64,000 nucleotides of DNA, taken from assembly GCF_000423865.1 (NCBI RefSeq), contig NZ_AUIU01000014.1:124001-188000 (forward strand). Direction: 5' to 3'. The stretch is from Thermodesulfovibrio thiophilus DSM 17215. Its GTDB lineage: Bacteria > Nitrospirota > Thermodesulfovibrionia > Thermodesulfovibrionales > Thermodesulfovibrionaceae. How positions within the stretch are numbered: the stretch's first letter is position 1; the number at the start of each line of letters is the position of its first letter. The translations under genes and the position numbers were made by a program. A model generated the notes under the pieces. The model had not been told where the DNA came from. It saw only the letters and a list, made by a program, of their open reading frames with translations, and made no database searches. Below, in pieces: positions 25,317-47,289 of the stretch.

Positions 25317-25328
25317 TATGTCAGAAAA

Positions 25329-25419
25329 CGGAGAGGCAGGGATTCGAACCCTGGGTGGAGCTTTTGGCCCCACAACCGCTTAGCAGGCGGCTGCCTTCGA
25401 CCGACTCGGCCACCTCTCC
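25329..25419 (-). tRNA. tRNA-Ser (anticodon GCU)
   Basis: Acceptor stem GGAGAGG/CCTCTCC with G73 (at 25329). D arm TGGCCGAGTCGGTCGAAGG, anticodon loop TGCTAA giving GCU, long variable arm (TGTGGGG...CTCCACCC) and T arm GGGTTCGAATCCC. It is 91 nt to the discriminator. CCA is not encoded. It lies just upstream of the DedA gene on the same strand. Confidence 0.97.
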
Positions 25420-25444
25420 AAAGTTTAATTAATAATACCATTCT

Positions 25445-39630: not shown

Positions 39631-40614
39631 ATGAAATTTATTGAAAAAATTTTGATGCCACATCTTGAATGGGTTCAGCTTGAAGTCTCAAGTCTTTGTA
39701 ATGCTTCATGCTTTTACTGCCCGCATACAACACATAGAAAGCAATGGACTGGAAGGAATATAACTCTGAATGAGTTTCTACAAATCATGCCTTATCTTAA
39801 AAAAATTAAACTTCTATATCTTCAGGGATGGGGAGAGCCTTTCTGTAATCCGGATTTTTTTAAATTTGTTGAGATTGCAAAAAAATATGGATGCAGAACA
39901 GGAACAACAACAAATGGAATGCTCATTGAAGAAGCTCACATTGAAAAAATAATTGACTCAAGCATGGATATAATAGCATTCTCACTTACAGGAATAAAGA
40001 AAAATGATACTCTGCGGACAGGAACAAAAGCCGGGAAAGTTTTTAAAGTTATTGAAAGATTAAATGAAGAAAAAATAAAAAAGGCAGTTTCAAAACCAGA
40101 AATTCACATTGCTTATATGCTGCTTAAATCAAATTTTGATGAACTTGAAGAAATTCCTGAAACTCTTACTAAATCTGGAATTGATCATGTAGTTATTAGC
40201 ATTCTCGATCTGGTTTCCGATTCATCTCTTAAAGACGAATGTCTTGTTCCTGAAACAGAGGAAGAATTTAATGTCTTAAAAAATAAAGCCTTACATGTTA
40301 TAAACAAAGGAAGGAAACTCAATATAGCAGTAGCTTTTAATCTTTCACATCCATTTAAAAAAGGAAAAACCTGTTCTGAAAAACCTCTGCAGTCAATTTT
40401 TATAAACTCATCTGGACATGTTTCTCCATGCGTATTTACAGGTATTCCATCAGAGGGATTTAAAAATTTGTATTTTGGTAACATAAATGAACAATCATTA
40501 CCATCTATCTGGAGAAGTCGTGAATATAGAGAATTTCGCAAGAAACATCTTGAAGATGATAAGTCCTTACCATGCAATATCTGTCCTAAACGTAGAGTGG
40601 TTGAACTAGCTTAA
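39631..40614 (+). CDS. Radical SAM/SPASM-type protein
   Basis: 327 residues. The radical SAM motif is CNASCFYCPHTTH near residue 23. A C-terminal auxiliary-cluster region has CSEKPLQSIFINSSGHVSPC and CNICPKRRV, as in SPASM/twitch proteins that modify peptides or act in cofactor maturation. GWGEPFCNPDF and TTNGMLI are typical SAM-binding elements. No substrate peptide is evident nearby. Divergent from the HemW-like gene by 23 bp. Confidence 0.85.
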   Translation: MKFIEKILMPHLEWVQLEVSSLCNASCFYCPHTTHRKQWTGRNITLNEFLQIMPYLKKIKLLYLQGWGEPFCNPDFFKFVEIAKKYGCRTGTTTNGMLIEEAHIEKIIDSSMDIIAFSLTGIKKNDTLRTGTKAGKVFKVIERLNEEKIKKAVSKPEIHIAYMLLKSNFDELEEIPETLTKSGIDHVVISILDLVSDSSLKDECLVPETEEEFNVLKNKALHVINKGRKLNIAVAFNLSHPFKKGKTCSEKPLQSIFINSSGHVSPCVFTGIPSEGFKNLYFGNINEQSLPSIWRSREYREFRKKHLEDDKSLPCNICPKRRVVELA

Positions 40615-41420: not shown

Positions 41421-44400
41421 CTATGCCTTCTCTATGTTGACCATGAATGCCTTTGTTTCGGGTATCATGGTATTTGGGTCACCTACTGATGGTGTAAGCA
41501 GATTTGCACTATCACCGCCGGAACCGTCTTTAGGCCATTGCCATCCATAGTGCCATGGCAAACCAACCTGATGTATTGTCATTCCCATAACTTTAAATGG
41601 TTTTAATCTATCTGTGACGATTGCAATTGCCCAGAGCTTTCCTCTGACAGATGAAACTACTACTTTATCTCCGCTGTTTATCCCCTTTTCTTTTGCAAGT
41701 TCTTTGCTCATCTCAATAAATATCTGAGGCTCAAGCTCAAGCAGCCAATCTGTATGTCTTGTCATGACCCCGGTCTGCCAGTGTTCTGTTACTCTGTAGG
41801 TTGTGCAGACATACGGATATCTTGTATCACAATAAATAAATGCGTCAGCATCTGTTCCAAATAACTTTACAGTAGGATTTATCCTATGTTTTTTATAAAG
41901 TGGGTTTTCCTGAAATGGACACTCAAGTGGTTCATAGTGTGTTGGGAATGGTCCATCAGCCAATCCAGTTCCAAATATTGCACCCACGCCAAGAGGCTTC
42001 ATTATAAATGGAAGTTTTCCACCTTCCATTGCAAGTGGTGGAGCTGGTCCATCTGGAATATCTCCCAACCATTTTTTATTTGCTGTATCCCACTTCAGCA
42101 ATGGTCTCTTTGGATCCCATGGATTACCCTGTGGATCAACACTTGCACGATTATAAATTATGCGTCTGTTTAGAGGCCAGCACCATGCCCAGTTTAAATA
42201 AAGTCCGAGTCCTGTTGGATCTTCCTTGCCTCTCCTTGCCATCATATTTCCTTTTTCAGTGTAGCTTGCACAGTACAACCAGTTACCTGAAGAGGTCTTC
42301 CCATCGTCTCTTAAAAATACAAAACTTGGAACAAGCTCCCCTTTCTTTCCTATAAGTTTTCCATCCTTGTCATATACATCCTCAAGATAGTATCCATTTA
42401 TCTCTTTTGCAATAAGATTGATATTAATATGCTTTATTTTTCCCTGTCTGTCCTTCTCGCCATAATCCCATGTAAGATTTACTATTGGTTCAGGAAATGC
42501 TCCTTTTTCTTGTTCATAAAGTTTCTTTACTCTGAAGTAAAGCTCATTCATTATTTCAGCATCTGGTAGAGTTTTTCCTGGTGGATTCACTGCTTTATAT
42601 CTCCACTGGGCAAGCCTTCCAGAGTTAGTGATACTTCCCTCTTTTTCAACTGAGCTGGCACATGGAAGGAAGAAAACTTCTGTTTTTATTTTTTTGGGAT
42701 CCATTCCAGGACCTCTCCAGAATGAAGCTGTTTCATTATCCCAGAGATTGACAGTAACAAGCCAGTCAAGCTTTGCAAGAGCTTTTCTTGTTTTGTTTGA
42801 GTTAGCACCAGAACACGCTGGATTCTGTCCCCATGAAAAGAATCCTTTAATTTTTCCTTTGTACATCTGATCAAAAATCATGAGCCATGAGTAGTCCTGA
42901 CCATCATCTCTCTTTGGCAAGTAGCTATAGCAAAAGTCATTATATTTTGTTGCCTTATCCCCATAGATGGCTTTCAAGTAGCTTACTATATATTTTGGTC
43001 TGTTAGACCACCAATTTACGCTTCTTGGTTCTTTTGTTTTTGGTGTGTATTTTTCAATATATTTTTTTAAATCAGTATCACTTGCAACTGGGATGGGATT
43101 GTATCCTGGAAGAATATGGAAAAGTATTCCATAGTCAGTTGAACCCTGGACATTGGATTCGCCTCTGAGGGCGTTCACTCCTCCTCCAGCCATTCCAACG
43201 TTACCAAGTAGCAGCTGAACAATTGTAAATGTTCTTATGTTCTGAACTCCAATTGTGTGCTGCGTCCATCCCATTGCATAGCATTCTGTCATTACTCTAT
43301 CTGGTTTACCAGTGGATGCTAAAATTTTATACGCCTCTTCAATTTTATCCTTTGGTGCTCCTGTAATATCTGAAACTGTATCTATGGTGTATCTTAAATA
43401 ATGCTTTTTAAGAAGCTGAAACACACAGTTTGGATCCTGAAGTGTTGGATCTTTCTTTGGAACGCCATTTTCATCAAGCTGGAATTTCCATGTTGATTTG
43501 TCATAGCTTCTTTTTTGCTCATCATATCCGGAGAATACTCCATCAAGGTCTTCAGGAGTTTTAAAGTTGGGGTCAACAAGAAAAGATGCATCTGTGTAGT
43601 TTACAACATAATCTTTAAAATACAGATTGTTATCTATAATGTACTTGATCAATCCTCCAAGAAATACAACATCTGATCCTGAACGAATTGGAACATAAAG
43701 GTCTGCTTTTGATGCTGTTCTTGTAAATTTGGGATCAATAACTACAAGTTTTGCACCTCTCTGTTCCTTTGCTCTCATTATCCATTTCATTGATATTGGA
43801 TGATTTTCTGCAGGATTACCACCCATGACTAAAACCACATCTGCATTTTTGAGGTCAATCCAGTGATTTGTCATTGCTCCTCTGCCAAACGACTCTCCCA
43901 GAGCCGCTACAGTGGCAGAATGTCATATACGAGCCTGATGTTCAATATAAACAAGCCCCCAGGAACGCATGAGCTTCTGCATTAGATAGCACTCTTCATT
44001 ATCCATTGCAGCTGATCCAACATGAGCAATTGAATCAACTCTGTTTACAATCTGTCCTTTTGCATTTTTTGTGATGAAATATTTATCCCTTGTTTGTTTA
44101 ACAAGCCTGGCGATTTTATTCAGAGCTTCTTCCCAGCTAATTTTTTTCCATTCTGTTGCACCAGGTGCACGATACATGGGTTCAGTTACTCTGTAAGGAT
44201 TGTTCGCCATCTGATAAATTGATGCCCCTTTCGGGCACAGTGCTCCCTCGTTAATTGGACTGTCCGGATCACCTTCTGTGTTAATTACCTTACCCTCTTT
44301 AGCAAAGACAATGATACTACAGCCAACAGAACAGTAAGGACATATCGTCGTTGTCTCCCTGGCACCCTTTGTTCTCAGCTCCGCTGCATAGGCTTTTGCC

Positions 44401-44480
44401 GGTTCAAGATTAAGCCCGATTGAGCTGAGAAGAAGAGCACCTGTAGAGATTTTCAAGAAACCTCGTCTGGTAAGCTCCAT
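41421..44480 (-). CDS. fdhA: Selenocysteine-containing, Tat-exported formate dehydrogenase catalytic subunit
   Basis: Oxidises formate at a molybdenum or tungsten bis-MGD centre, in the periplasm. 1019 residues counting Sec. A Tat signal (LTRRGFLK) opens the protein. The [4Fe-4S] site CPYCSVGCSII...GALCPKG lies near residue 47. Codon 186 is an in-frame TGA (43923-43925) in QARI-U-HSATVAALGESFGRG, the exact position of Sec in FdnG-type enzymes. The frame continues unbroken to 41421, with WKM-type Mo-bis-PGD domains, GGNPAENHP, and a C-terminal formate dehydrogenase dinucleotide-binding domain (TGVMTRH...LEPQIFIEMSKELA). GGAGGAG precedes the ATG. Conceptual translation without Sec splits it in two. 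Upstream control elements are listed separately. Confidence 0.96.
43882..43918 (-). ncRNA. Bacterial SECIS element in fdhA mRNA
   Basis: On the minus strand CTGCCA (43913-43918) pairs with TGGCAG (43882-43887). Inside, CGGCTC pairs with GAGTCG with one G-U, closing a TGGGA loop with the GG that SelB recognises. It starts 4 nt after the UGA codon, the right spacing for bacterial SelB-dependent insertion. Confidence 0.88.
43923..43925 (-). other. Sec (UGA) codon of fdhA
   Basis: TGA in frame at codon 186, flanked by residues that match FdnG/FdhA enzymes on both sides, with a SECIS-like hairpin starting a few bases downstream. The in-frame continuation of 833 codons rules out a real stop. Confidence 0.97.
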
Positions 44481-44510: not shown

Positions 44511-44550
44511 AAAAAAGGGAAGTTTCGAGAGTTTATACTCGAAACTCCCC
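44511..44550 (-). terminator. Intrinsic terminator/attenuator before fdhA
   Basis: Minus strand: 44538-44550 (GGGGAGTTTCGAG) pairs with 44517-44529 (CTCGAAACTTCCC) in 13 pairs with one G-U and an 8-nt loop, followed at once by six U residues (44511-44516). It stands 30 bp before the fdhA start. Its 5' arm shares three G residues (44548-44550) with helix 2 of the leader, so the two structures compete. It would also stop read-through from the kinase/regulator genes. Confidence 0.85.
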
Positions 44551-44601
44551 CCTGACCATCCGATTAAACTTCTCAGGGGGATGCATGGAAGATTTAATCG
44601 G
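44548..44601 (-). ncRNA. Candidate pseudoknotted regulatory RNA in the fdhA leader
   Basis: Two perfect complementary pairs interleave. Helix 1 is CCGATTAAA (44593-44601) with TTTAATCGG (44560-44568), extendable by CTTC/GAAG (44588-44591 with 44569-44572) around one bulged U, for 13 pairs. Helix 2 is CCCCCTGA (44573-44580), located in the loop of helix 1, with TCAGGGGG (44548-44555) downstream. The order a-b-a'-b' is that of an H-type pseudoknot. Loop 1 is 7 nt (44581-44587), and only 4 nt (44556-44559) join helix 1 to the last strand, so the two helices may be strained together or may alternate. The predicted 5' end of the transcript is about 9 nt upstream. Confidence 0.7.
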
Positions 44602-44621
44602 CTCATAGCTAATTATATAAA

Positions 44622-44635
44622 GCAAGAAATTTGCC
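44622..44635 (-). promoter_or_regulatory. Sigma-54 promoter of fdhA
   Basis: Minus strand GGCAAATTTCTTGC has the diagnostic GG and GC with exactly 10 bp between them and TTGC at the -12 element, preceded by A and followed by TT. It matches TGGCAC-N5-TTGC in all but two positions. Transcription would start near 44610, leaving a leader of about 130 nt. The gene directly upstream encodes an NtrC-type activator. Confidence 0.8.
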
Positions 44636-44722
44636 TGATTATTTTCTCTGAAAAATCAAATAATTATAAAATTAAACGGATGCAACTTTTTTTGCTATGA
44701 AGGTAAAATGTCAAAAATTGTT

Positions 44723-46147
44723 TCAGGGAGCATTGGTTTTACGAATTCTTCTGTTAAGAGCCTGTCTTGTAATTCCAAGCATTGAAGATGCAAGCCCCTG
44801 ATTTCCCTGTGCACGCCTCAAAGCTTCATCTATAAGAATCTGTTCCATTTCCTTAAGCGTGGGTAGTTTATCAGGAAATCTCATCTGAATATAGAATCTT
44901 ACAATCTCGCTTTTCAGCTCTTTATCAATTGAGTTACTTACATCAATCATATCTTTAAAACTCTCCAATGACAGAATGCTAGATTTACACCTTGTAACAG
45001 CATCATAAATCATCATTTTAAGCTCTCTTACATTACCCGGAAATAAGTGATTCATCAAAAGCACAATCAGTTCTTCAGGATATTTCAAAAGCTTCTTTCC
45101 AAGAGAGATTGATGCTTCTTTAACAAAATGATCAACCAAAACAGGGATATCATCCTTTCTTTCTCTCAATGGAGGAAGATGAACATGATGTGCTTTAAGC
45201 CTGTAAAATAAATCTTTTCTGAATTTTCCGGATGATACCATCTCATTAATATCCTGATTTGTTGCAACTATTATTCTTGCATCACTGTTTTTTGCCATGT
45301 CAGAGCCAAGAGGATAATAAACATTCTCCTGAATAACTCTCAACAGCTTAATCTGAGATGCTTCAGACATATCACCAATCTCATCAAGAAAAAGAGTTCC
45401 ACCCCTTGCTCTGGCTATTAATCCCTCTCTATTTGACATAGCACCTGTAAATGCTCCTTTTCTGTGCCCAAAAAGAGTATCTGAAAACATTGTATCATCA
45501 AGTCCTGCAATATTTACCGCCACAAACTCTCCCTTTTTACCACTTACTCTGTGAACTGCTCTTGCAATGAGTTCTTTTCCTGTTCCAGTCTCTCCGGTAA
45601 TTAAAACCGGCTGATCTGTTCTGGCAATAACTTCTACATATTTAAAAATTCCTTTCATTTTTTGATTGACAGTCACTATTTCTGAAAAAGCATCTTTGTG
45701 TTCAATGTCATCCAGAAGGAGGCTTTCTTTTAAGCCTGTTATTTCTTCTTTAAGTCTGTTTATTTCCAGTGCCTTATGAATTGAAGTAATGAGCCTGTTT
45801 TTTTCAACCGGTTTAACAAGATAATCAAATGCTCCAGCTTTTATACACTCTACAGCCGAGTTTATCTCGTTTATGGCTGTAATAACAATCACAGGAATTT
45901 CAGGATACTCAACAACTATATATTTCAAAAGCTCAAAACCAGAGATATATGGCATTGATAGATCTAGCAAGATAACGGAAAAAGAACGCTCTTTAAGAAT
46001 TACAGGCACCTCACGAGCATCCTGAATACATGTAATATCTTTTATTCCATTTGATTTAAGAATAACAGAATAAGTATAGAGAGCATCAGGCTCATCATCA
46101 ACAATTGCAACACTGCCGCAAAATTGCTTTTCTTTAATTGCCTTCAT
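44723..46147 (-). CDS. NtrC-family sigma-54-dependent response regulator
   Basis: 474 residues. A receiver domain (residues 10-125) has the phosphoacceptor Asp in VILLDLSMP near residue 57. The AAA+ domain has GETGTGKELIARAVH near residue 188, GAFTGAMSNREG (the sigma-54 contact loop, intact) and GGTLFLDEIGDMS. A Fis-type helix-turn-helix ends the protein (GLASSMLGITRQALNRRIRK). The start overlaps the histidine-kinase stop by 4 bp. The sigma-54 promoter of fdhA lies 90-100 bp beyond its stop, making FdhAB a likely target. Confidence 0.95.
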   Translation of the reverse strand: MKAIKEKQFCGSVAIVDDEPDALYTYSVILKSNGIKDITCIQDAREVPVILKERSFSVILLDLSMPYISGFELLKYIVVEYPEIPVIVITAINEINSAVECIKAGAFDYLVKPVEKNRLITSIHKALEINRLKEEITGLKESLLLDDIEHKDAFSEIVTVNQKMKGIFKYVEVIARTDQPVLITGETGTGKELIARAVHRVSGKKGEFVAVNIAGLDDTMFSDTLFGHRKGAFTGAMSNREGLIARARGGTLFLDEIGDMSEASQIKLLRVIQENVYYPLGSDMAKNSDARIIVATNQDINEMVSSGKFRKDLFYRLKAHHVHLPPLRERKDDIPVLVDHFVKEASISLGKKLLKYPEELIVLLMNHLFPGNVRELKMMIYDAVTRCKSSILSLESFKDMIDVSNSIDKELKSEIVRFYIQMRFPDKLPTLKEMEQILIDEALRRAQGNQGLASSMLGITRQALNRRIRKTNAP

Positions 46148-47289
46148 ACAGGTAAATAAACTTTAACCTGAGTACCTGCTGCTTTTTCTGATTCAATTAT
46201 AATATCTCCATTATGCTCTTCAACTATTGCTCTGGAAAGATACAGCCCAAGCCCTGTTCCGCCTGATGCATGTTTTGTAGAAAAAAAAGGTTTATATATA
46301 TGCTGCATGTCTTCTTCTGAAATTCCTCTGCCTTCATCTTTTATTTCCAGATATATTCTCTTTTTATCCGACTGAAACGAAGTTAAAATTGACACAGCTT
46401 TTTTTCTATCTGGAAGGGATTGTAAGGCATTCATTAATAAATTAATAACCACCTGCTCAAGTTTTTGAACATTACCATTTATCTTTGGCAAATTATCCTG
46501 AAGTTGCATTGAAAAATTTTCAGTATGAAGAAAAATAGTATGACTCAGTATCAACACAACTCTTCTTACAACTTCATTTATATCAACCATAGTATTTTCA
46601 GAGGTTACTCCATTCTGAACATGTTTTTTAAACTCTTCAAATGTTTCTCTGATTCTGTTAGCTCCATCACTAACAGCCAGAATCAGCCGGGGCATTATTT
46701 TATCAAATTCCTGAGAAGATATACCTCCAATCATAAATTCACCATATTCTTCCTCGTATTCTTTAATTATTGAAAAAATATCCTGCCAGGCATTGTAGGT
46801 AAGCTGAAGATTGTTCAGCATAACATTACAGATATTATTTATCTCATGAGCCACACTTGAAGTTATTAAATTAAACGCCCTCACTTTATTTTTAAAAATA
46901 AGCTGTGCTTTATTTTCCTTTATGTCCCCTTTTTTTGTCAGTTCTTCTGTTATGTCTCTGAATCTGCAAAATGTAACCCTGTAGTCTTCATATAAAATGG
47001 GAAAAATATCAAAAAAAAGCAACCCTCTTGCACCATCAGGTTTTATAAAATTAATTGTTCCAGAATACTCAAGTCCCTGACAATCTTTTATCAGGTTGAT
47101 AAAATTCATATATTCATTTTTTTCAAAAACTCTTGATAAATCCAGCTGTTCTCCAAAAAGGTTATACGCATTCTGATTAGCATATAAAATATCAAAGGTT
47201 TCAGATTCAAAAATAACTAAAGGCTCAAGAAAATGTTCAACAAATTTTAAAAAAATCCCGGTTGAAAGGCTTTTTTGAAATATTTTCAT
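46144..47289 (-). CDS. Cytoplasmic PAS-containing sensor histidine kinase
   Basis: 381 residues with no membrane helices. A PAS-like domain (about 20-115: DILYANQNAYNLFG...ILYEDYRVTFCRFRDITEEL) precedes the phosphoacceptor SSVAHEINNICNVM near residue 148. The ATPase domain shows NLLMNALQSLP (N box), DEGRGISEED (G1), PFFSTK and GTGLGLYLSRAI (G2). Its start overlaps the purM stop by 4 bp, so the pair is co-transcribed with housekeeping genes. The signal is presumably cytoplasmic, such as redox state or a metabolite. Confidence 0.93.
   Translation of the reverse strand: MKIFQKSLSTGIFLKFVEHFLEPLVIFESETFDILYANQNAYNLFGEQLDLSRVFEKNEYMNFINLIKDCQGLEYSGTINFIKPDGARGLLFFDIFPILYEDYRVTFCRFRDITEELTKKGDIKENKAQLIFKNKVRAFNLITSSVAHEINNICNVMLNNLQLTYNAWQDIFSIIKEYEEEYGEFMIGGISSQEFDKIMPRLILAVSDGANRIRETFEEFKKHVQNGVTSENTMVDINEVVRRVVLILSHTIFLHTENFSMQLQDNLPKINGNVQKLEQVVINLLMNALQSLPDRKKAVSILTSFQSDKKRIYLEIKDEGRGISEEDMQHIYKPFFSTKHASGGTGLGLYLSRAIVEEHNGDIIIESEKAAGTQVKVYLPV

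Follow-up and report, generated by a model that had tools for sequence, protein, structure and literature searches.

The DNA analysed here, a stretch of 64,000 nucleotides from Thermodesulfovibrio thiophilus DSM 17215 (hereafter the window), carries on its minus strand the gene fdhA, which encodes a molybdopterin formate dehydrogenase (Pfam domains Molybdop_Fe4S4 and Molybdopterin) and is followed by a gene for a 4Fe-4S subunit. An in-frame TGA splits fdhA into two ORFs (44480-43923 and 43874-41421). This TGA aligns with the Cys of an open paralogue found in the relative G013 (EHQARI*HSA vs EHQARICHSS), and the RNA just after the UGA folds into a SECIS-like hairpin (z = -3.25). Rfam SECIS_3 matches at the same UGA site in relatives are weak, and they were the only sub-threshold matches, all inside fdhA, when the window and eight relatives were searched at gathering and lax thresholds; at gathering, the window gave a tRNA-Ser (GCT) at 25328-25420 and nothing else. 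A radical SAM/SPASM protein gene (39631-40614) lies beside the fdh genes on the opposite strand.

Promoter and upstream regulators

The gene and the elements upstream of it are the following (window positions):

43923-44480, minus strand: first part of fdhA, ending with the in-frame Sec codon UGA (43925-43923); the frame runs on to 41421
About 44610, minus strand: predicted transcription start (+1), placed from the -12 C at 44622
44622-44636, minus strand: sigma-54-type promoter, -24/-12 AGGCAAATTTCTTGC, with the sigma-54-like element GGCAAATTTCTTGC at 44635-44622 and GG-N10-GC spacing
44678-44695, minus strand: probable activator site, the palindrome GCAA-N6-TTGCAYCC; a single match in the window against 0.04 expected
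44723-46147, minus strand: NtrC-type sigma-54 response regulator (Pfam Response_reg, Sigma54_activat, HTH_8)
46144-47289, minus strand: PAS histidine kinase (Pfam PAS_9, HATPase_c)

The promoter element, TGG(C/T)A-N-TTG, is kept without indels in 14 of 14 genomes of the genus, with GA or GT in place of GC as the -12 dinucleotide in most relatives. The regulator and kinase genes lie on the same strand, directly upstream of the fdhA leader; the NtrC-type regulator is the likely activator of the fdhA promoter and the PAS histidine kinase its likely partner. The GCAA-N6-TTGCAYCC palindrome, located 70-90 nt ahead of the predicted +1 and mostly kept in position and symmetry among relatives, is probably the binding site of this activator. 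A -24/-12 element, an rpoN gene (found in the genome) and an enhancer-binding activator, the components expected of a sigma-54 operon, are all present. Just after the regulator gene (window ~44729-44705) there is also a conserved CCCTGAAA followed by ATTTTTT, a region that in several relatives has CCCCTGA in common with the leader loop.

Structure and conservation of the fdhA leader

Between the predicted start and fdhA, the transcript contains a compact hairpin followed by an intrinsic terminator. All coordinates below are whole-window positions, read on the minus strand:

44588-44601, minus strand: helix 1, 5' strand (a), from pairing, folding and genus alignment
44573-44587, minus strand: apical loop of helix 1, UUCCAUACAGCCCCCUGA, including b (CCCCCUGA); C5 invariant in 14/14 genomes
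44560-44572, minus strand: helix 1, 3' strand (a'), from pairing, folding and genus alignment
44548-44555, minus strand: b' (UCAGGGGG), which may pair with b as an antiterminator and overlaps the terminator base; 4-8 pairs with b in 14/14 genomes, no covariation
44514-44553, minus strand: intrinsic terminator hairpin of 16 pairs, from a terminator scan; 8/16 pairs covary
44511-44516, minus strand: U tract of the terminator, read from the sequence and present across the genus

The original prediction described two complementary segments interleaved as a-b-a'-b', the first beginning about 9 nt after the expected sigma-54 start, and a terminator ending in U6 that shares three G residues with b'. 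These features are present as described. Helix 1 begins 9 nt downstream of the predicted +1 and is formed in T. thiophilus by strand a (44601-44593, CCGAUUAAA, plus 44591-44588, CUUC) and a' (44572-44560), giving 9+4 pairs with U44592 bulged, while b (44580-44573) and b' (44555-44548) are complementary over 8 pairs. The terminator stem (44550-44538/44529-44517, with U6 at 44516-44511) reaches up to 16 pairs when the A-U and G.U pairs at its base are included, and G44550-44548 belong both to it and to b'.

The fold of the full leader has an energy of -38.2 kcal/mol (z = -4.5), a stability equalled by 0 of 200 shuffles, and the leaders of four relatives give z-scores of -3.8 to -6.7. These scores, and the same anatomy in 14 species, demonstrate that the leader fold exceeds chance. 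When the 3' arm of the terminator was left out, the T. thiophilus leader folded into the b/b' hairpin instead of helix 1, which indicates that the two helices are alternatives in this species, as a caveat to the original prediction had anticipated. At 60 °C, approximately the growth temperature of Thermodesulfovibrio, helix 1 comes out at -3.5 to -7.3 kcal/mol and the hairpin formed by b/b' at -1.9 to -10.1 kcal/mol, similar energies that suit a switch.

Sixteen Thermodesulfovibrio genomes were compared, and a Sec-type fdhA was found in 14 of them. The leader is present in all 14, helix 1 folds in every one, the C5 of the apical loop is unchanged throughout, and promoter, hairpin and terminator follow one another in identical order; the two genomes without a Sec-type fdhA, which also have no leader, are 72% and 66% complete. 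Mean pairwise identity across the 14 species is 89% in the element spanning the first 46 nt (44561-44606), with 91, 96 and 57% at codon positions 1, 2 and 3 of fdhA and about 50-73% in the intergenic DNA upstream of the element. Judged by this sequence conservation, the leader is under strong selection, and so is the arrangement to which attention had first been drawn: promoter, compact fold, terminator, ribosome binding site, Sec formate dehydrogenase gene. The second fdhA of G013, a Cys-type gene with an open frame of 1026 aa (L017 1501-2061, G013:C40), has no sigma-54 promoter, hairpin or terminator in its upstream region, in what is a single case.

Covariation and distribution

The presence of compensating base changes in homologous leaders differed between the three helices. 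The terminator is proven as an RNA structure by covariation: in the alignment of 14 genomes, 93% of cells are paired, 8 of the 16 pairs and 17 cells have changed on both sides, and the covariation score of 0.418 was matched by none of 500 shuffles and dropped to 0.10-0.23 when the pairing was slid. Helix 1, with 92% of cells paired, gave barely positive results (column shuffles, 71/500; with refolding, 219/2000; arm swap, 128/2000), since it is kept but nearly invariant. Indeed, 7 of its 13 pairs never vary, and the helix is otherwise maintained through one C-G to U-A swap, a symmetric C-to-T/G-to-A change in the arms in G001, together with several G.U changes and bulges that move along the stem; of 300 sets with an equal number of random substitutions, only 1 folded as well as helix 1.

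For b/b', the result was negative. Although the pairing is possible in 14/14 genomes (4-8 pairs; CCCCU/AGGGG in G001), none of its 6 pairs shows changes on both sides among the 14 genomes. The C5 strand never changes, neither in G003, whose b' lacks one G, nor in G014, where an A interrupts b', so that C5 is conserved for something besides pairing with b'. The pseudoknot is therefore unproven, and beside a complete helix 1 it is also sterically doubtful, since linkers of 4-7 nt must span the 13 pairs. Thus, the proposals of a single pseudoknot through b/b', or of b/b' as a proven antiterminator, were not upheld: a true pseudoknot beside a full helix 1 is unlikely, and one with the upper four pairs open is possible. 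At the base of the terminator, U has G rather than A as its preferred partner (19:19 vs 9:33, p = 0.01, uncorrected for relatedness), which hints at a second pairing role for b'.

The leader gave no match at gathering in Rfam 15, the best score being 26 bits to an unrelated sRNA with a gathering threshold of 55.5, and no match to Moco RNA at gathering or at E<=10. This agrees with the original remark that no known riboswitch class was recognised. A covariance model search of 176 genomes of the order returned only weak hits outside Thermodesulfovibrio, the best of which (G023, E 0.007) was discounted as it falls within an ORF of the opposite strand. A pattern scan of 84,980 species detected 20 loci, of which nine were strong covariance-model matches, all in genus contigs already seen, and the remainder matched the leader model weakly or not at all. 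The element was likewise absent from 8 of 8 fdhA leaders of other families. Within the genomes searched, it is confined to Thermodesulfovibrio, where it occurs once per genome and before one gene. Outside the leader itself, it was observed that the start of a hydrogenase-type, ferredoxin-domain gene, AGGGGGGUUGUAUGG (L141 and L142, 401-414), complements the fdhA leader loop over 14 nt.

Candidate modes of control

Taken as a whole, the leader is probably a regulated, cis-acting transcription attenuator, limited to the genus and previously undescribed, a designation that stands on the strong selection and on the absence of a matching Rfam class. From the conserved hairpin and terminator, we infer that readthrough would be regulated. 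In the mechanism proposed, sigma-54 and the neighbouring NtrC-type regulator would start RNA polymerase at the fdhA promoter. Helix 1 would be made first, displaying the invariant loop UUCCAUACAGCCCCCUGA as a natural receptor, and the strong intrinsic terminator would come next, some 20 nt upstream of the ribosome binding site of fdhA, with termination as the default. A signal at the hairpin loop, either a small molecule or an RNA-binding protein, would let the polymerase pass; in the simplest case, with helix 1 opened or the loop captured, the C5UGA strand would be free to pair with GGGG at the terminator base. An antiterminator role for b/b' is speculative, as is the identity of the signal: selenium, the Mo/W cofactor or the formate state.

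Protein and small-molecule control are near-equal options for the attenuator. In the first, a possible but tentative reading, termination would be prevented by an RNA-binding protein that recognises the loop of the hairpin, as in the nasF-type leaders, where protein binding to a hairpin located before a terminator gives readthrough (PMC3369931, PMC7496416). The order of elements is the same, and the narrow range of the leader fits a lineage-specific protein. Nevertheless, ANTAR proteins were found in 0 of 16 genus genomes, in a search that gave none in any control genome either, and no RNA-binding protein was detected among six neighbouring proteins scanned. By analogy, the nasF-type leaders under ANTAR proteins appear closest in logic to the fdhA leader: nasF/NasR and other ANTAR leaders also place a hairpin and then an intrinsic terminator before a metabolic operon, with readthrough as the controlled step, as predicted here. 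However, ANTAR RNAs consist of two small hairpins with hexanucleotide loops bearing A at position 1 and G at position 4 (PMC3369931), whereas the fdhA leader has a single hairpin of 13 pairs whose loop measures ~15 nt, the double hexaloop being absent.

According to the second option, possible though doubtful, the loop would bind a metabolite directly, either by itself or in a pseudoknot with GGGG. An invariant loop beside a drifting terminator stem, a compact element beginning near +5 to +10 and the overlap of b' with the terminator all suit a riboswitch. Occurrence in one genus, once per genome and before one gene, is unlike most riboswitch classes, the pseudoknot is unsupported, and a 4-7 nt linker cannot span 13 pairs. 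In H-type pseudoknot riboswitches (preQ1, SAM-II, fluoride), a hairpin loop complements a strand that is also part of the expression platform. The fdhA leader resembles them in having a loop complementary to a strand that overlaps the terminator, and differs from them in its short linker and in an interleaved helix that lacks covariation. The SECIS-like leader of E. coli selAB, to which SelB binds, shares with the fdhA leader an RNA hairpin before a selenium-linked gene; here, in contrast, SECIS_3 scores in relatives, weakly, only at the UGA inside fdhA and not in the leader. Moco RNA, a candidate Mo/W cofactor riboswitch found likewise before a Mo/W enzyme, is a multistem junction (PMC2408646), a structure to which the fdhA leader shows no Rfam match. 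A more specific and more doubtful version of this option is a new, genus-limited riboswitch class in which the C-rich-loop hairpin would sense selenium, Mo/W cofactor or formate state and control termination. Such a class may go with the Sec enzyme rather than with its Cys stand-in. We know of no riboswitch for selenium or formate. Among the open-access papers searched, the one that mentions both Thermodesulfovibrio and riboswitches deals, judging by its title, with how carbon fixation evolved in Desulfobacterota.

It is unlikely that the leader acts as a 5'-UTR-derived small RNA, in which the terminated ~95-nt transcript would work in trans through its C-rich loop on ribosome sites. The loop segment CCAUACAGCCCCCU does complement a Shine-Dalgarno (SD) sequence plus AUG, and in G002 and G003 it forms 14 unbroken pairs (-27 kcal/mol) with the start of the hydrogenase-type gene. 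Yet just 5 of 16 genomes were found to carry that gene, against 14 in which the loop is fixed, so this start was rejected as a conserved target; moreover, pairing with SDs is common for C-rich loops (in the window, -10 on average and as strong as -22.3), and readthrough would still be needed for fdhA. Pairing of the loop with the ribosome binding site of fdhA itself (-12.5 to -15.1) was considered as well and discarded as unexceptional in comparison with other starts in the window.

Slightly less credible still is a DNA-level operator, with CCGATTAAA-N-TTTAATCGG as a protein site below the promoter and the terminator merely insulating fdhA from the upstream operon. The symmetric change in G001 would suit a palindrome too, and a regulator operon lies directly upstream. 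This reading is made less likely by the conservation of the spacer (the loop), which equals that of the arms, and by a distance between promoter and element that varies by -1 to +4 nt across the genus; in addition, the G.U changes and bulge slips suit RNA, and an insulator located after +1 would block fdhA itself. Finally, attenuation through a leader peptide is very improbable: in 14/14 leaders a reading frame of 33 codons or more starts from an AUG near +5, but it has no SD, with only a few nt ahead of the AUG, and the codon-position pattern is opposite to that of coding sequence (codons differ nonsynonymously in 36 cases vs 5 synonymously; conservation is highest at third positions, 0.94 vs 0.91 and 0.81).

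To our knowledge, the control of Sec formate dehydrogenases relative to their Cys stand-ins is poorly understood in most bacteria. With 14 natural variants of the leader in hand, the trigger of the probable attenuator can be screened directly. A sigma-54 promoter followed by a strongly conserved attenuator would represent two-step control, in this thermophile, of a selenium and Mo/W enzyme that comes at a high cost.
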